DNA from: Microcaldota archaeon | GTDB taxonomy: Archaea; Micrarchaeota; Micrarchaeia; Anstonellales; Bilamarchaeaceae | NCBI GenBank assembly: GCA_030648615.1 | Contig: JAUSHJ010000034.1 | Location: 1 to 52,493 of the forward strand | Length of the DNA: 52,493 nt | Reading direction: 5' to 3' | Shown here: piece after piece, positions 10,653-26,217 of the stretch | How the letters are laid out: every line of letters begins with the position of its first letter | Position numbering within the stretch: position 1 is the stretch's first letter | Position numbers and translations under genes: made by a program | Notes under the pieces: generated by a model | The model's database searches: none | Told to the model about the DNA's origin: nothing | Seen by the model: only the letters and a program-made list of their open reading frames with translations

Positions 10653-12227
10653 TTATTTCGTACATAAATTGAATATTGAAATCTCTAACTTCTTATTTTG
10701 TTCCAATTTCTTAATCAGTTCGCCAAGTATGCGCTGTTTTATCTCTAGGTATTTCTCCTTTGGCAGTTCTACATTTCCAATCGCGTAACGTTTTGATTTG
10801 GTGTTAAAACAAAACATGCAGTTAGTGAGATTTTCTGAGTTATGACAAAACATTGAATCGGTGCAGCTCCTGCAATTATCCATTTCAAAGCATCTTGTCA
10901 GATTAGTCGAATGATAGCACTTGAAACAGAAACTTGAATTCATAATGGAATCTACACCAAAACAATTTTGCGATGTTTTTGGCCACATACTACAGCCACA
11001 ATATTTTGCCTCGATGGTCATGGATATCTGGTAACAATCCGAGCAATCCATATAGTATGTACAATCAATCATATTACGATTCTGTCCAGATTTCATCTCA
11101 GCTTTCAAGTAAGCAATTTTTCCTATCGACCCATAGACATTTTTCAAGGTTAAGCTTTCTGCTTCGTTCTGGTCCAGTGTAAGGTTGCTGAGCTGCTCTG
11201 CTTCTTCCAGGGTGACCATTTTGTCTGCTGGCAGTGGAAGTAATGAAACACCATAAGGCACTATAAGGATTCGCTCATTGCTCACTGCTGATTTGGTCTC
11301 CTCGATTTTATGAACATGCTCAAAAAGCCATTTACTATAATTGTCTATACCAACCAGTTCTTTCCCGAAAATCAGCCTGCTCGTAGTTAAAAACTCTCGT
11401 TCAATTATCTGTTTGTTCAGCCGCTCTTTTTTGACTGCTGGAATGATTGACTGGGGCTTGGGCGACTTACTTTTCCTTACAATATCCAACAGAGAAGGTG
11501 CTGATTTTTTTGTTCGTAATTCATCAGCAATCTCTGCAAGTAGTTTTTTCTTTATGCTTTCAAATTTATCCTTGTTCAATTCAAGATTCCCTATTGTGTT
11601 CCTCTTGTTTTTCAGATTAAATGAAAAAAGGCAGTTTGAGCAGCCGTCAAGACCATAGCAATAATATGAATCCACAGTATTGGTAGCCAGCCAAGATTCA
11701 AATGAGCGCTTAGCCCAAGTTGTCTGACAACATCTTATTATGAATTCTGAACCTCCTAGTGCATGACTCCCAAAACAGTAACTGTTCTCCCTTCCCACTG
11801 TACAGAAGGCCATGTATTTTACATTAAAAAACTGGGCGGAATCATAAACACAAAATCCGTCGCTTATGCTGGAACTCTGTTCAACGTCATGACAGTTCCC
11901 CAAGTTAATGTCCCCGCAATAGGAAATTCTTTCATTTACTACTTCGAGCAAAGAATCTATGTCCTTGATTTGGTTTATGTTGAAAGGTTCGTACTTCTTT
12001 CCAAAATCAATCTCGTCGAAACTTATGAATTTGGCCTTCTTGTCGTAATCTTTTATTGCAAATGTAATCTCCTTTCCTGAAATACTTGATTTGTAATAGA
12101 CGTTAGCATCGATGATTTCCTTTAGATAGCCTTCAAAATCCTCGAGTTCGCCTACCTCCTCGCCGAATAGCACCTTGCAAGTGCTTTTCCATGCACGATT
12201 AAGAGTAATATATGTTTCACTTTCCAT
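10653..12227 (-). CDS. Cys-rich repeat protein, fused A and B modules (third pair)
   Basis: This 524-aa protein is the last gene of the five-gene array. Residues 1 to about 255 form an A module (opens TYITLNRAWKSTCKVLFGEE, ends around SIIPAVKK). Residues about 265-524 form a B module (opens EREFLTTSRLIFGKELVG, ends SIFNLCTK). The N part of each module is helical. The second half of each is cysteine-rich with about 20-residue periodicity, for example SENLTNCMFCFNTKSK, followed by a conserved NVELPKEKY-type closing helix. This suggests a short parallel-beta solenoid with cysteine ladders, or metal binding. It has no signal peptide. Its start overlaps the upstream B gene by 11 nt. Function unknown. 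Confidence 0.7.
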   Translation of the reverse strand: MESETYITLNRAWKSTCKVLFGEEVGELEDFEGYLKEIIDANVYYKSSISGKEITFAIKDYDKKAKFISFDEIDFGKKYEPFNINQIKDIDSLLEVVNERISYCGDINLGNCHDVEQSSSISDGFCVYDSAQFFNVKYMAFCTVGRENSYCFGSHALGGSEFIIRCCQTTWAKRSFESWLATNTVDSYYCYGLDGCSNCLFSFNLKNKRNTIGNLELNKDKFESIKKKLLAEIADELRTKKSAPSLLDIVRKSKSPKPQSIIPAVKKERLNKQIIEREFLTTSRLIFGKELVGIDNYSKWLFEHVHKIEETKSAVSNERILIVPYGVSLLPLPADKMVTLEEAEQLSNLTLDQNEAESLTLKNVYGSIGKIAYLKAEMKSGQNRNMIDCTYYMDCSDCYQISMTIEAKYCGCSMWPKTSQNCFGVDSIMNSSFCFKCYHSTNLTRCFEMDNCRSCTDSMFCHNSENLTNCMFCFNTKSKRYAIGNVELPKEKYLEIKQRILGELIKKLEQNKKLEISIFNLCTK

Positions 12228-12984
12228 TTTTCCTACCCAAGTTAAATATGCTCAGTCCTAAATATTTTTTCTCTTCCAGTTCCTTGTGGATATGTGCAAG
12301 CACCATTGCCTTTATCGCTTTATACTTTTCAGGTGGCAGTTCTATATTTGCTATAGCATATTTTTTAGACTTGGTATTGAAACAGAACATACAATCCTTG
12401 AGGTTTTCAGAGTTATGACAGAACATTGAATCACTACAGTTATTGCAGTCACTCATTTCGAAACAACGGATAAGGTTTTCAGAGTTATAGCATTTTATGC
12501 AGAACTGTGAGGAGAATAGATAGTAACAGCCTAAAGTATATTCAGAATACCTTGGCCAAAATGAATACAAACAACATTTTGATTTGTTCAAGGCACTTCC
12601 CCTGAAACATGTGTGGGAATCGTAATAGAGGGAAGACTCCACGACATTAGTATTTTTACCGTACTGAGTATCTAAAGTAGTGGTAGAGATATTTTGCAAT
12701 ACACTTCCTGCATTGGAAAGTGAAAGTGAAGCAAGTTCATTTTCAGATAGTTTTTTCTTCCCAAGTTCATCATAGGCTTCAGTCATGGTAACTAGTTTTG
12801 ACCTAAGATCATGGTAAAAACTAAATGTAGGAAGAAATATGAGATCTCCACTAATTTGGGATTTGACTTCTTCCTGAGTTGAAACGTTTTTACTCAGCCA
12901 GTTTTCATAATCCCTGTACCCTGTGAGCTTCTTCCCTAGCACTATGCCAGTTATCGTTTGGAATGTCTTCTCAAATTCATCCAT
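12217..12984 (-). CDS. Cys-rich repeat protein, B module (second pair)
   Basis: This 255-aa single B-type module opens MDEFEKTFQTITGIVLGKKL. The cysteine-rich half includes SSQFCIKCYNSENLIRCFEM, DCNNCSDSMFCHNSENL and DCMFCFNTKSKKYAIANIEL. The protein closes with a helix and SIFNLGRKNGK. The ATG at 12984 is chosen because GGTGATTCTG precedes it; it overlaps the upstream A gene by 8 nt (ATGGATGA). I know of similar cysteine-rich proteins of unknown function in candidate-phylum bacteria and archaea, ending in a NKQY-type helix, but cannot name the family with certainty. Confidence 0.7.
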   Translation of the reverse strand: MDEFEKTFQTITGIVLGKKLTGYRDYENWLSKNVSTQEEVKSQISGDLIFLPTFSFYHDLRSKLVTMTEAYDELGKKKLSENELASLSLSNAGSVLQNISTTTLDTQYGKNTNVVESSLYYDSHTCFRGSALNKSKCCLYSFWPRYSEYTLGCYYLFSSQFCIKCYNSENLIRCFEMSDCNNCSDSMFCHNSENLKDCMFCFNTKSKKYAIANIELPPEKYKAIKAMVLAHIHKELEEKKYLGLSIFNLGRKNGK

Positions 12985-13756
12985 CAGAATCACCACGAAT
13001 AATGTCAATAATTGAAGGTGCGGATTTGTTCTTTTTCATGTATTCTGCAATCTCAGCAACAAGTTTTTTCTTTAATTCTGCATATTTCTCTTTGTTAAGT
13101 GAAACATTACCAATAATATAATTTTTGCTTCTCTGGTTAAAAGAAAACATAGAATTTGTACAATCCTCTAAGCTTGCTGAGTAATAGCAGTCTGTTGCAA
13201 CATTGCAATGGAACAATTCCATACATCTAGTAGTTTTATAAGGATCCAGAATTTTTATACAGAATTGAATATCTCCACCTAAACAACAACCGAAAGAATT
13301 TTCCGGATTGCGTATTGAAGTAGTAAACGCCACGTATTTTCCTTCATAAACGTCCTGGCATTCTAAAGCATAATGAGTATTGATGCAGCGATGAGATAGA
13401 ATTACGTTACTGGAATTACCTAATACGACATTTCCAGCATAGTAAGCACGTTCACTTACAATTTCAAGAATAGAATCGATGTCCTTGATTTTATTTATAT
13501 CAAACGGAAGTTTTGACATTCTTTTAGCGTACTCTTCCATTTCATCATAGGCAATTACATTTGCATCTTTTGGAACTCTTTCGGAGGAAATAGTAATATC
13601 TTTATTTGATAAATGTGATTTTCTAGTTATTATAGGCTCAGTGTATCTCTTTAGATAATCTCTGAATTCCATTAGATTTCCCACATCGTCTCCTAAAAGA
13701 ACTCTGCAAGTGTTTTTCCATGATTTGTTTATTTGTTGATAGGCTACATCATCCAT
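12977..13756 (-). CDS. Cys-rich repeat protein, A module (second pair)
   Basis: This 259-aa A-type module opens MDDVAYQQINKSWKNTCRVL. The middle has INKIKDIDSILEIVSERAYY and AGNVVLGNSSNV, shared by all A modules. The cysteine-rich half includes RCMELFHCNVATDCYYSASL and DCTNSMFSFNQRSKNYIIGN, then NKEKYAELKKKL. A modules end their repeats with SFN, whereas B modules end with CFN. The start at 13756 follows GGTGATCCTG and overlaps the preceding B gene by 8 nt. The extended frame start upstream is the ribosome site itself. Function unknown. Confidence 0.7.
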   Translation of the reverse strand: MDDVAYQQINKSWKNTCRVLLGDDVGNLMEFRDYLKRYTEPIITRKSHLSNKDITISSERVPKDANVIAYDEMEEYAKRMSKLPFDINKIKDIDSILEIVSERAYYAGNVVLGNSSNVILSHRCINTHYALECQDVYEGKYVAFTTSIRNPENSFGCCLGGDIQFCIKILDPYKTTRCMELFHCNVATDCYYSASLEDCTNSMFSFNQRSKNYIIGNVSLNKEKYAELKKKLVAEIAEYMKKNKSAPSIIDIIRGDSDG

Positions 13757-14525
13757 CAGGATCACCAATATTGAAGATGTTATATCTGAGGTTTTTAGTT
13801 TCCTTGAGTTCTTTCACAATACCAGCCATAATTTTTGCTTTGATCTCTTTATAGATTTCTGGGGCCAATTGTATGTTCCCAATCGCATGTCTCAGATTCT
13901 TGGCATTGAAACAGAACATAGAATCATTAACATTCTCGCAATTGTGAGAAAAGAAAAGGTCGTGGCAGTTTGAAGAGGAATCTACCTCAAAGCATCTGGC
14001 AAGTGAAAAGGAGCGATAAACGTGAATGTTAAACTGGGAATGAGTTACTGCATAGCATCCAAACATACTTTCAGAAAATAGCGTGTAATTAGAAAACCCT
14101 ATATTTTTAACACCTAGAAATACGTCCTCACCTACGTAAACATTTCTTCCGCCCCCACCACCACTAACTTTCTCAAAATTCTCGTATGTTTGATACCTGA
14201 AATTACCGCAGAAATATGCAACTGGCTTCATAAACTTGGTCGTTAGTTCTTTCAGATTTGCAGTTTCTATCTCTTTTGCAGTAAACGGAGATGATGTAAC
14301 TTTATCCATTTCTTCCATAGATATTACTTTTGATTTATTGAATTCAATACCTAGATAATTGAGCGTTGGAGGTATCCAAACATCTGTTCCACTTACTGCT
14401 GATTTTGCAAGTGTAGGTAAAGGAACATGCCTTCCGAGCCAATCGCCATAATCATCGATTACAGTAAGCTCTGAACCCAGTAGCAATTTTGTAACTTCTC
14501 CAAATGCACTCTCAATTTCTTTCAT
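13749..14525 (-). CDS. Cys-rich repeat protein, B module (first pair)
   Basis: This 258-aa B-type module opens MKEIESAFGEVTKLLLGSEL. It is the most divergent B copy, with fewer cysteines in the repeat region (SLARCFEVDSSSNCHDLFFS, then VNDSMFCFNAKNLRHAIGNI) and a glycine run near residue 127. It closes with APEIYKEIKAKIM and YNIFNIGDPDG. It starts 4 nt after the upstream A gene stops and overlaps the next A gene by 8 nt. Loss of several repeat cysteines suggests that not every one is essential to the fold. Confidence 0.65.
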   Translation of the reverse strand: MKEIESAFGEVTKLLLGSELTVIDDYGDWLGRHVPLPTLAKSAVSGTDVWIPPTLNYLGIEFNKSKVISMEEMDKVTSSPFTAKEIETANLKELTTKFMKPVAYFCGNFRYQTYENFEKVSGGGGGRNVYVGEDVFLGVKNIGFSNYTLFSESMFGCYAVTHSQFNIHVYRSFSLARCFEVDSSSNCHDLFFSHNCENVNDSMFCFNAKNLRHAIGNIQLAPEIYKEIKAKIMAGIVKELKETKNLRYNIFNIGDPDG

Positions 14526-14529
14526 TACA

Positions 14530-15300
14530 TCACGCGTTATTCATCAGATCCATAATCGAATAATCTAGTTTCTTTTTCTTCTTAAGTTCATCTGAAATCT
14601 CTACTAATAATTTTGTTTTCAGTTTCAGGTATTGACTCTTTTCTAGCTCTACATTAGCAACATGGTATCGTTTGCCTCTTAAATTAAAAGAAAACAAGCA
14701 ATCGGTGCATTGCAATAGATTATAGCAGAAATAACTATCAGAAGTCCCTATTGTCGTGCAGCATTCGAAGCAACGTTTGAGAGTATTGTTATAAAAGCAA
14801 CGAACAATATGTGAAGACTGACCGCTGGACATTGACCCGAAATAGTTCTCGACTTCACGTGCAAGATAACCATATGCTACGTATTTACTTTTTTCTACAA
14901 TCGAAGAGTTGAGCACACCTGTACTGTCTACTACTGCATCGGAATGTTCGATATATTTTGAATTACCAAGAACTTTGTTTCCACTGTAAACGAAACGTTC
15001 TTTTAATGATTGCACAAGTGAATCAGTGTCCTTGATTTGATTGATATCTAATGGTTTGGAGGATATTTTTACGAATTCGCTGAGCTCATTCTCATAATCA
15101 AAAAATTTGGCTTTTTTCGAATAATGATCAGAGGCAACCCATGCAGGTTTTCCTGATATTGAAGATATGACTGTCTGGCCAATTGCTGCAGGCTTCAAAT
15201 AATACTCAAATTCCTTCAGCTCTCCCAGCTCCTGACCAAAAAGTATTCTGCATGTACTTCTCCATTGGACAGTGAGGATATCGTAAGCTGTGGGATTCAT
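14530..15300 (-). CDS. Cys-rich repeat protein, A module (first pair)
   Basis: This 256-aa A-type module is the first gene of the array. It opens MNPTAYDILTVQWRSTCRIL and shares DINQIKDTDSLVQSLKERFV with the other A copies. Its cysteine repeats include RCFYNNTLKRCFECCTTIGT and CYNLLQCTDCLFSFNLRGKR. The promoter of the array should lie in 15301-15393, where TTATATTCC on the minus strand is the best TATA candidate. The gene is divergent from the helical protein gene at 15394. Function unknown. Confidence 0.65.
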   Translation of the reverse strand: MNPTAYDILTVQWRSTCRILFGQELGELKEFEYYLKPAAIGQTVISSISGKPAWVASDHYSKKAKFFDYENELSEFVKISSKPLDINQIKDTDSLVQSLKERFVYSGNKVLGNSKYIEHSDAVVDSTGVLNSSIVEKSKYVAYGYLAREVENYFGSMSSGQSSHIVRCFYNNTLKRCFECCTTIGTSDSYFCYNLLQCTDCLFSFNLRGKRYHVANVELEKSQYLKLKTKLLVEISDELKKKKKLDYSIMDLMNNA

Positions 15301-23221: not shown

Positions 23222-23869
23222 ATGAAGAACGAACAAAATAATCTAATCAGGAACATTTTGGCAATTGGCGGATTAATTCTCATATTTTTAGTTCCTTATT
23301 TCTATGCAAATGATACTACTAGCTTAGTACCAGCAATTCTTCTATTACTGTTCTTCATCCCTACATTCTTCTTATACTCAAGTACAGATGAAAGAAAATT
23401 CATTCTCGCAGTCTTATTCATAGCGGCAATTGCAGAAGGAATGAATGTAGGTTTTGGAGCTTACAATTATCTAGGCACCGATGAAGTTCCACAATGGGTA
23501 CTGATTGGTTGGTGCTGCACTGCCTGGTCACTTCTGAATTTGAATAAGATGATTAACCCAAATAAGGACAGGAACAAAATATTAGCAGTCATCATTGCAC
23601 TTTTTGCGATTTATGCAATTTTCATTTCACATTCACTAACCGGATTTTTATTAAATTCTATAATAGTAAGCGCAATAATGTTTGCCACTGAAACAAAGAG
23701 CTACAATATTTTCCTAATTGCAGTGGCATTTGGAATGGTAATAGAATTCTCAGGTGTTTTCCTATTTGGAGCGTGGAGCTACACTGTAGGGCCAGATTTG
23801 AGCAATCTAGGGGCAATGTACACGTTCGTGTATTTCATTGGTTCGCTAATAAGCAAGTACGAACTCTAG
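23222..23869 (+). CDS. Multi-pass membrane protein, 215 aa
   Basis: This integral membrane protein has about six or seven hydrophobic segments. A conserved-looking loop (AEGMNVGFGAYNYLGTDEVP) follows the third or fourth segment, and VIEFSGVFLFGAWSY comes near the end. The Glu/Asn-rich spots inside the membrane region suggest a transporter or small-molecule enzyme. I cannot name the family with confidence. Upstream is ACAAATGTTTAAAT (23186-23199), similar to sites beside glnA and lrp. The stop overlaps the rtcB stop by 4 nt (convergent). Confidence 0.6.
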   Translation: MKNEQNNLIRNILAIGGLILIFLVPYFYANDTTSLVPAILLLLFFIPTFFLYSSTDERKFILAVLFIAAIAEGMNVGFGAYNYLGTDEVPQWVLIGWCCTAWSLLNLNKMINPNKDRNKILAVIIALFAIYAIFISHSLTGFLLNSIIVSAIMFATETKSYNIFLIAVAFGMVIEFSGVFLFGAWSYTVGPDLSNLGAMYTFVYFIGSLISKYEL

Positions 23870-25373
23870 CCTTTCACGTTTCCAATAGGAATAAGCTTTA
23901 CAACTTTTCTGGAAATGCCAGACTTATCACAGGAATCTATGACTTCATCGATATCCTTGTAAGCTCCACCAGCTTCCTCGGCTAGGCCAGCAAATGAAAC
24001 ACTCTTAACGTAGATACCTTTAGCAAGCATATCCTTTGCCAACTGCTCTCCTTTAAACATACCTTTTGCTTTTGTTCTAGACATTGTTCTGCCAGAACCA
24101 TGAGCAGTAGTAAACCATGTGTCTGCACCTCTTTCAGTGCCAACCAACAAATACGAACCAGTTTCCATGCTTCCACCAATGATTATTGGTTGACCATCTT
24201 CCTTGTATCTTGGCATTAATTCTGGACGACCAGGACCGTATGCAGCTGTAGCACCTTTTCTATGCACTATTAGTTCTTTCCAATTTCCGTCTACCAAATG
24301 TTTCTCTACACTGGCACGATTATGTGCAACATCGTAAACCTGTTTCATCCCAAGTTTCTCTGCATCTACTTTGAATATTTCAGAGAAAACTTCTCTTAAT
24401 CTATGAAGAATCGTTTGCCTGTTTGCAAAACTCATGTTAACTGCACATTTCATTGCTGAAAAATAATCCTGCCCTTCTAGAGAACTAAAAGGTGCACATG
24501 CTAATTCACGATCAAGAATTTTTATATTGTATTTAGATTCCATTACATTTAGGAAAGTGTTAAGATAATCTGTTGCAACCTGGTGACCGAAACCTCTCGA
24601 ACCGCAGTGAAACATAATAACAATCTGATCTTCGAATAATCCCCATTTCTTTGCGAGTACTTTGTCAATCATATTCTCTGGTTTAACATGCTGGATTTCT
24701 AAGTAATGATTACCACTGCCTAAAGTGCCTATTTGATCTTTTCCTCGTTCTACTGCCTTCGTACTTACTTTCTTTTCGTCAGCACCTTCTGCTCTGCCTT
24801 TCAATTCAGTAACTTCAAGGTCATCGCTCCATCCGTAGCCGTTATTAACACACCATTCGCCGCCTTCCTCAATTACTTTTCTAAAAGTGGTCTTGTCTAG
24901 TTTTACAAATCCTTGACTACCTACACCTGCAGGAACTCGTTGAAATAGCCTATCAACTAATTGCTTCAAATGAGGTTGAACATCTTTGAATGTCAAATTT
25001 GTAGTAATAAGACGCATCCCACAATTAATATCAAAACCGATTCCACCTGGCGAAATAACTCCGCCATCATTAACGTCCATTGCTGCTACACCACCTATTG
25101 GAAAACCATACCCGGATTTGTCTTTCTTTTAAATTAATTAAAAGAAATATGACCATCGGGCATGCAATAGGAGTATTTGACTATGCCAGGCAAAGTAGCT
25201 ACATTGGTAACCTGATCGTAAACCTGGAGATCCATTTGCTTAAGTATTGCTTCGCTTGCAACGATTCTTGCTGGAACTCGCATTCCTTCCTTGAAAGAAG
25301 GGTCAATTTCCCATAGGTAATCATTGATCTTTTTGAATTCTGGTTTTTTAAAATCGAAATTTCCAAATGCCAT
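23866..25373 (-). CDS. rtcB: RNA-splicing ligase RtcB, interrupted by a 32-nt insertion
   Basis: Two frames together make a full RtcB of about 491 aa. Exon 1 (25373-25149) encodes the N terminus up to MPDGH. Exon 2 (25116-23866) resumes with SGYGFPIGGVAAMDVNDGG and carries all metal and catalytic residues: FDINCG (Cys), GSGNH, FHCGSRG, DVAHN and AHGSGR, whose His is guanylylated. RtcB joins 2',3'-cyclic phosphate and 5'-OH ends after tRNA intron excision. The 32-nt gap contains in-frame stops and shifts the frame, so the protein needs its removal. The start follows GAGGTGAATCA. The endonuclease relic ends 4 nt upstream. Confidence 0.85.
25117..25148 (-). other. Candidate 32-nt bulge-helix-bulge intron in rtcB mRNA
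   Basis: The insert splits the conserved PDGH-x-GYGFPIGG block. Its removal gives PDGHSGYGFPIGG in frame, and Ser at x is found in RtcB relatives (PDVHSGYG). On the mRNA strand it contains a perfect 10-bp hairpin: TTTCTTTTAA (25147-25138), loop TTAAT, TTAAAAGAAA (25132-25123). This is flanked by a three-base bulge AUA (25150-25148), a GUC:GAC central helix (25153-25151/25122-25120), a bulge of As, and a GAU:AUC exon helix (25157-25155/25117-25115). That is a relaxed bulge-helix-bulge. Alternatives are a disabling insertion or assembly error. Confidence 0.7.
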
Positions 25374-25377
25374 TGAT

Positions 25378-26217
25378 TCACCTCTTAATTAGTTTATTAA
25401 AAACATCTATTTTTATAGTGAGGCAATACCAAATAGATCCTTGAGGATTAGACCAAGGCCCCCTTAGATGAGATTTTATATTTAATTTTAAAAGTTTTTT
25501 ACGTAAATTTATTAGGTTACTTTTAACAATTGAAGTGAACCTAACTTGCTTTCGTTTATAGCTAATTTTAGCTTTTTGTTTTACAAATTTAATCAATAGT
25601 TTTTGATCCGACGGTACATGCCAATTATAGTCCACATATGAATTTAATGTTTTGATTAGATTTTTTTCTTTTTTGGGATGCAAAAAACCGATGTGTTTTT
25701 GAAATTTCGTTATATCGTCTCGTCCACAAATAGCTAACGCCCAGGTATTACGATTTTTTCTTTTTTTAACTGATGAAACAATACCAAAAATTTTATGAAG
25801 TGAAGCTTGAATTTGCAAAATACCTCTATGATTAATTGACTCTAACCCAACTATACGATTCTTTGCTTTTATAAAAGAAACTCACCCGTCACAATCAAAA
25901 TATGCTCTTAACCAAAATTTTAACAAAGCTTTTTTTAATTTAGGAAAATCCCAGTTAGCTGAATAATATGCATAGTCTTTAGTTAATATTTCATAGATTC
26001 TTTTGTTTTGAAGTTTTGCTCTGCCATCTTTCGTTATGATTGGGCTTACTCCAAAAAATCTGAAAAATCTCTTTTGGAAGTCTTTTAAGAGAACAGAATT
26101 TGTATTTCTTAAGCCAATGTAGTAGTACTTGTGCTTTTGACTAGGAGGATTTTTTATAACATACCCATCAGCACATAAATACGCATGAATAGCGGCTAAA
26201 TCTTCATTAAATTTCAT
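25378..26217 (-). pseudogene. LAGLIDADG homing endonuclease broken by one in-frame TGA
   Basis: The frame 26217 to 25378 would encode about 279 aa. It has two LAGLIDADG-type helices: AAIHAYLCADGYV (about 9-21) and FWLRAYFDCDG (about 101-111). A TGA at 25884-25882 follows the second. The same frame continues open with VSFIKAKNRIVGLESI to the end at 25378. The TGA sits where relatives often have Trp or another residue after DG, so a TGG-to-TGA change is the simplest reading. TGA is a genuine stop elsewhere in the window. The gene lies 4 nt upstream of rtcB on the same strand, next to the rtcB insertion. Its presence suggests a past mobile intron or intein event. Confidence 0.75.

Follow-up and report, generated by a model that had tools for sequence, protein, structure and literature searches.

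The window, by which we mean the whole 52,493-nt stretch of DNA analyzed here, belongs to a MAG of 1.65 Mb in 76 contigs. Its minus strand carries rtcB from 25373 to 23866, and the gene is split at PDGH^SGYG by a 32-nt insert at 25148-25117. The minus-strand letters at the site read ...CCCGATGGTCAT^ATTTCTTTTAATTAATTTAAAAGAAAGACAAA^TCCGGGTATGG..., in which the middle part ATTTCTTTTAATTAATTTAAAAGAAAGACAAA is the insert. The 5' reading frame closes as PDGHISFN-stop and the downstream portion of the gene is open in a different frame, so the frame-breaking insert described in an earlier note on this DNA is present in the letters and in the reading frames. Exon 1 (25149-25373, minus strand) runs from the ATG at 25373-25371 to the His of PDGH, a length of 75 codons, and covers positions 1-24 of PF01139. 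Exon 2 (23866-25116, minus strand) has 416 codons and a stop, and matches PF01139 with E=4e-152 and the solved RtcB PH1602 with E=8e-132. Removing the insert with cuts at AU^A and AA^U gives PDGHSGYGFPIGG, which restores DGHSGYGFPIG and, by the coordinates, adds up to the 491-aa protein that the note had expected exact removal to yield. Exon 2 is otherwise intact and aligns over about 402-404 residues to solved RtcB structures. The motifs DINC, GNH, HxGSRG, AHN and HGxGR and the C-terminal K, which have functional roles in RtcB, are all retained. The nearest relatives of this rtcB are from Micrarchaeota. A PF01139 search of the MAG gave two matches, which are the two halves of the same gene; a second intact rtcB, raised earlier as a finding that would count against splicing, is thus disfavored in an assembly that is 89.75% complete.

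Four nucleotides upstream of rtcB on the same strand lies a free-standing LAGLIDADG homing-endonuclease gene (HEG; 25378-26217), which contains a TGA at 25884-25882. Elsewhere in the window are an archaeal 16S rRNA gene (757-2292), with an end-to-end match to Rfam RF01959, and four neighboring ORFs of 256-263 aa (12217-15300) without a Pfam match at E<=0.001. Several familiar kinds of insert were ruled out for the 32 nt: an intein by the stops and the frameshift, and a group I intron by the insert being only 32 nt and by the lack of a group I hit when the window was compared with Rfam at gathering scores. The location is also not that of the cbf5 introns, since the host gene is rtcB.

A 71-nt region around the insert folds at -22.5 kcal/mol, compared with a shuffled mean of -10.3 (z -5.0, with 0 of 200 shuffles as low). 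The computed fold contains the 10-bp hairpin, the AUA bulge and the GUC:GAC helix that had been described from the letters, and its loop is 5 nt. Within the intron (25117-25148, minus strand), the hairpin has its 5' arm at 25147-25138, the loop at 25137-25133 and the 3' arm at 25132-25123. By fold and geometry, the 5' bulge AUA lies at 25148-25150, with a predicted cut AU^A between 25149 and 25148, and the 5' strand of the central helix, GUC, at 25151-25153; at a fourth step, the G at 25154 stands unpaired against an A. The 3' strand, GAC (25120-25122), is supported by fold, geometry and covariation. The 3' bulge AAU lies at 25116-25118, where geometry and the restored motif place the cut AA^U between 25117 and 25116. 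An outer exon helix that was absent from the earlier note closes the structure, with CAUGCCCG in exon 1 (25157-25164) pairing with CGGGUAUG in exon 2 (25114-25107); both arms, the second annotated as 25107-25114, are supported by the fold and by codon bias in the flanks. Scored as a bulge-helix-bulge (BHB), the site has AU^A, GGUC/GACA with 3 of 4 pairs, and AA^U. The modeled structure is a relaxed BHB, with a central helix of 3 bp and an unpaired G/A step.

Comparison with rtcB of relatives found alleles with and without an insert at the identical position. Among the 39 archaeal or closely related loci listed, six hold an insert at exactly the window's site, of 33 (L008), 30 (L015), 21 (L018), 29 (L022), 30 (L025) and 23 nt (L027), and the sequences differ; two are frame-shifted and four are in frame with stops. 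That several genomes hold unlike inserts here also disfavors an assembly error, the other explanation that had been raised against the reading. The 32-nt insert, at a site it shares with unlike inserts elsewhere, is more than a chance occurrence.

We then have a census of 51 short inserts (16-34 nt) in the rtcB genes of 42 DPANN genomes: 8 Micrarchaeota, 19 Aenigmatarchaeota and at least 15 Nanoarchaeota, the Nanoarchaeota share being a lower bound. The earlier remark that introns are rare in archaeal mRNA fails for rtcB of the DPANN phyla surveyed. PF01139 found rtcB in 275 of 301 Micrarchaeota genomes, nearly all of which were viewed after re-listing in two sets (56 and 73 genomes), and in 136 of 156 Aenigmatarchaeota. 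Among Nanoarchaeota it was found in 350 of 371 sampled genomes, of which about 155 rows were listed and 80 of the 112 odd-looking others re-listed, so that the intron count is a minimum. All named intron-bearing records are MAGs. The inserts fall in two conserved motifs: PDGH^x (site 1, that of the window; 17), G-Y(T^AY)-G (site 2; 20), Y^G (1), G-Y/F^D (4), Y(T^AT)-D (4) and three spots within D-I-N (5). Nine genomes have two introns in their rtcB gene. The shortest, of 16 nt, is in G349, a genome that also has a second, intact rtcB.

The total of 51 was reached from a table of 53 rows of candidate junctions by adding G409 B and G742 B, which the search pattern had passed over, and removing four. 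Three of these, G435 B, G431 B and G622 B, have an intact motif (LCGFDINC or TGFDINC) and were artifacts of a narrow pattern, and G349 B, a 13-nt insert, was left out as uncertain. Other candidates were rejected as a tandem duplication (G093), a frameshift near the 3' end (G029), a run of N with frame breaks (G271) or a deletion (G745), and G309, which has downstream breaks, G332, G357, G393 and G060 were rejected after viewing. Most split rtcB genes of Micrarchaeota are intein-like, with one long frame and pieces at about 1-50 and 46-426. Two genomes, G281 and G284 (L140, L141), have both a site-2 BHB intron and an apparent intein at the DINC/DVNC cysteine. Three Aenigmatarchaeota genes (G366:C30, G376:C7, G346:C2) are split at about profile position 187 in one long frame, perhaps by an intein elsewhere. 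A sample of Thermoproteota had rtcB in 145 of 151 genomes; among the matches listed, there were no internal stops and no break at sites 1-2, the two-match genes were mostly intein-like, and the match in G917 started at position 19.

If the inserts stayed in the mRNA, nearly all of the genes would be unreadable. Insert lengths modulo 3 of 0, 1 and 2 number 19, 12 and 20. The inserts cannot be left in because 32 of the 51 are frame-shifting and all but one of the 19 others (18) hold an in-frame stop, which makes 50 of 51 unreadable; the frame and stop state of the second inserts of G493 and G742 was read separately. Only the site-2 insert of G409 is open in frame and could be translated.

We scored 49 introns against the canonical BHB rule, in which 3-nt bulges are cut after the second nucleotide and flank a 4-bp central helix; restoration of the motif was a condition of scoring, and two further junctions were read by eye. 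The central helix had at least 3 of 4 pairs in 46 of 49 introns and all 4 in 28, the inner stem scored at least 3 of 5 in 47 of 49, and 45 of 49 reached p<=0.05 against shuffled introns. The junction was the best of 1-9 motif-restoring options, meaning that the fit is partly selected, and the shuffles had similar freedom. The 5' cuts were most commonly AU^A (24/49) and AU^U (15/49). Fit was poor (p>0.05) for the second intron of G390, G316, the first of G409, and G435, and the central helix had just 2 of 4 pairs in G316, G665 and G617. A rigid canonical BHB scan of 27 genes placed the real site at the top in 5, and the window's site was not in the top three; the motif alone does not discriminate, because the background of such a scan is high.

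Covariation was measured in 15 site-1 introns. Nine of 19 pairs changed on both sides, with 32 cells compared with 8.8 after shuffling, and the score was 0.347 compared with 0.152 shuffled and 0.148 or less when partners were slid, values that lean towards structure because the alignment was fitted to it. Three pairs of the central helix are kept in 15 of 15, the middle pair being C-G, U-A or U-G. The window's intron and four others from the same site were used to build a covariance model, which gave site-1 introns 46-90 bits and intronless genes 41 or less; its matches outside rtcB, in G247 and G070, were judged to be chance on viewing. In the exon flank that forms the outer helix, Pro is CCC in 15 of 17 genes with a site-1 intron and in 6 of 33 without, and Gly is GGG in 11 of 17 and 3 of 33, respectively. 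These exon codons fit a preference for the outer helix at site 1. One locus, L019, is an exact empty site whose near flank is the same as that of its close relative, the intron-bearing G302, and this intron-type flank lacking an intron reads as a precise loss.

As a control, we used an rpoB domain in Aenigmatarchaeota. No BHB inserts were found in 144 genomes, compared with 19 of 136 for rtcB (Fisher 5e-7); five odd genes of the 144 were viewed by eye, and the contig-end cases G454 and G426 and the short match G421 were left out. The oddities were a deletion with frameshift (G302, G347), a point stop (G367) and an open, longer frame (G305), and no insert was seen in G411. The breaks in G302:C3 and G347:C15, which look like small deletions, are in genomes that have rtcB introns too. 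Since no such insert was seen in rpoB, neither assembly noise nor a general invasion of introns is an easy explanation, as judged from this one control gene.

The MAG also encodes a candidate for the cutting enzyme. EndA is present in a 420-aa frame as the ARMAN-type, two-domain form, and its best solved match is the ARMAN-2 epsilon2 enzyme (4fz2/9w2k; E=7e-136 over 388 residues). With chain positions counted, Y236, H251, K282 and the loop residues Y160-K161 are identical in the alignment; the roles of these five residues in ARMAN-2 EndA are given in the available text of PMC12397907. The EndA of the MAG is a close relative with the residues of the broad-specificity loop; the substrates described in that text are pre-tRNAs and synthetic BHB RNA, whereas here the substrate would be rtcB mRNA. 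Of 11 intron-bearing genomes tested, 10 have EndA (G305 gave no match), as do both intronless genomes tested, and none of the matches contains a stop. A second frame of about 166 aa from the EndA catalytic family stands beside two-domain EndA in L113/L118 (G000:C32, C50), G036 and G053. These three genomes are the three site-1 Micrarchaeota, and three other Micrarchaeota tested have the long EndA alone.

Recurrence, covariation, the cut rule, frames and stops, the control gene and EndA strongly support a BHB-type mRNA intron in rtcB, and splicing of the 32-nt insert by EndA and RtcB is very probably the right reading. The 32 nt would be a minimal BHB intron in rtcB pre-mRNA. ARMAN-type EndA would cleave at AU^A and AA^U, and RtcB would ligate the exons to give the 491-aa ligase. 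If splicing is real, and if no other ligase joins the exons, RtcB would be needed to make RtcB.

The gene beside rtcB suggests how such an intron may have arrived. In the window's HEG, the TGA at 25884-25882 is a nonsense codon where L022 and L025 have Trp (FDCDGW/FDSDGW) and are open. A recoded TGA need not be invoked for it, because TGA ends 14 of the 36 open frames of at least 200 codons in the window. The HEG family adjoins rtcB in 11 of 42 intron genomes, from three phyla, compared with 0 of 48 intronless ones (Fisher 1e-4), a comparison in which the controls come partly from other phyla and the window, where the HEG was first seen, is among the 11; leaving out the window gives 10 of 41. 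The family stands with site-1 introns in G000, G303, G304, G305 (at a contig edge), G414, G420 and G515, and with site-2 introns in G316, G564, G622 and G665, being on the opposite strand in G316 and G665. Of these 11 genes, two are short, at about 196 aa, and one is truncated where its contig ends. The intronless set comprised 30 rtcB genes whose 5' flank spans 700 nt or more and 18 flanks of 2 kb, and the HEG was absent from five shorter intronless flanks too (3 of 33 and 2 of 20). It was not found beside 31 of the 42 intron-bearing rtcB genes, in about 1.8 kb of 5' flank (less than 500 nt in G312 and G465), and no HEG of this family was seen in G097, G285, G312 or G628, which have introns only at the DINC motif. 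Weak matches occur in G742, in G510 and inside an intein of G062, and a scan of viral contigs found no relative.

The window and 10 other genomes thus combine an intron without its own HEG and a free-standing HEG, although the window's HEG is no longer intact. The linkage of the HEG to rtcB, seen in 11 of the 42 intron genomes and in none of the 48 intronless ones, suggests collaborative homing, in which the intron is spread by an external nuclease whose own target it shields. Between G515 (site 1) and G564 (site 2), the HEGs are 69% and the RtcB proteins 82% identical and the introns stand 7 nt apart, as would be expected if a single nuclease target can be blocked in either of two ways. The intron is also patchy among close relatives, such as G053 compared with L004. 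On a tree of 76 rows, which has uneven sampling and leaves out the intron genomes G345, G316 and G493 and the intronless L011, the intron label changes 11 times, with at least 9 changes forced.

From this pattern, we consider it somewhat more likely than not that the intron originated by movement together with the free-standing LAGLIDADG gene. The nuclease would cleave rtcB alleles that lack the intron, within their conserved PDGHxGYGFP segment. Repair would then introduce the intron along with the exon sequence on either side and the nuclease gene, after which the intron would protect the cut site. In the window's genome, the nuclease gene carries its nonsense codon, and the spliceable intron has stayed.

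The most serious alternative is that the introns are gained frequently by splicing slips, for example reverse ligation by RtcB/EndA, and frequently lost without any homing, the HEG being a separate parasite of rtcB. The 31 intron genomes with no HEG in the examined flank would agree with this, as would the spread over several distinct positions, including the DINC motif, where the four genomes named above lack the HEG. The linkage of 11 of 42 compared with 0 of 48 stands against it, and so does the confinement of the HEG family to sites 1 and 2, both inside one plausible target; we regard such static introns as possible and yet the less likely account.

An autoregulatory function of the rtcB intron is also possible, in the sense that the intron may be kept to tie RtcB output to splicing capacity and not by mobility. 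In its favor, the gene that bears the introns encodes the splicing ligase, rtcB has acquired them repeatedly with none seen in the rpoB control, and nine genomes carry two. Against this, presence is patchy (G053 and L004; 11 changes on the 76-row tree), the loop would by our reasoning be one of positive feedback and not homeostatic, and the positions in conserved motifs and the adjacent HEG are better explained by homing. As the reason for the intron's persistence, autoregulation is improbable.

Ribosomes could in principle hop the hairpin and leave the RNA uncut, as they reportedly bypass a coding gap in T4 gene 60, and rtcB does offer a coding gap that contains a hairpin and in-frame stops and beyond which the frame is restored. 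The take-off and landing codons are unmatched at site 1 (CAY and mostly AAA, AAT, AAG or TAA), site-2 junctions and some of those at site 4 interrupt codons, the BHB cut rule fits most positions, and the exon arms pair across the gap, so that programmed bypassing is very hard to sustain. Equally implausible is a dead or misassembled gene: although the data are from MAGs and the insert brings stops and a frameshift, separate genomes hold unlike inserts at the same site, exon 2 is intact and aligns to solved RtcB, no other rtcB was found in the genome, and the structure is maintained by compensatory change.

We return to a spliced intron that probably moved with its neighboring nuclease gene. 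A fuller version of this proposal, on which we are evenly divided, is a two-part DPANN mobile element: a BHB intron of 16-34 nt, cut by EndA and sealed by RtcB, and a separate LAGLIDADG nuclease, in the one gene whose product the intron's splicing needs, with slightly different positions each shielding the conserved rtcB target. For such an element to work, the ligase would have to be present already for more to be made, as protein inherited from the mother cell.

Archaeal rRNA and tRNA BHB introns can hold internal LAGLIDADG genes. BHB excision and a LAGLIDADG partner are common to those introns and the rtcB introns, whereas the HEG of the rtcB introns is external and the RNA that hosts them is an mRNA. 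Inteins at the DINC cysteine of RtcB are likewise parasitic inserts in the conserved 5' third of rtcB; they differ from the intron in using protein splicing and in forming one long open frame, mostly of about 800-1050 aa. The F-CphI/psbA group I intron of cyanophages also pairs a free-standing homing endonuclease with an intron in a host gene, and the available text of PMC6083498 describes collaborative homing as an arrangement in which the intron prevents self-cleavage and gains a route to spread. Compared with the system in that text, the intron here is an archaeal BHB intron of 16-34 nt, the nuclease is of the LAGLIDADG type and its cleavage is putative. The cbf5 introns of Crenarchaeota are in another host gene and another phylum and, as far as the available text of PMC2738675 goes, involve a hetero-oligomeric EndA and have neither an adjacent HEG nor self-dependence of a ligase. 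The portions of PMC2738675 and PMC7714728 at hand present cbf5 as the one confirmed spliced archaeal mRNA and mention predicted introns in some further protein genes, and that of PMC7714728 adds another mRNA, in Haloferax, that EndA cleaves. The literature searched, which took in few subscription journals and preprints, yielded no account of introns in rtcB mRNA.

BHB-type introns thus appear to recur in the gene for the splicing ligase, in three phyla, at several positions and down to 16 nt, and in intron-bearing genomes rtcB is open to mis-annotation as broken. If the introns are spliced, dependence on RtcB would be inherited and would form a positive loop, unless another ligase serves. The rtcB introns would make testable the gain, movement and loss of protein-spliced introns, whether a cell can rely on an enzyme to mature that enzyme's own mRNA, and whether EndA and RtcB may form a wider mRNA-splicing path in DPANN.
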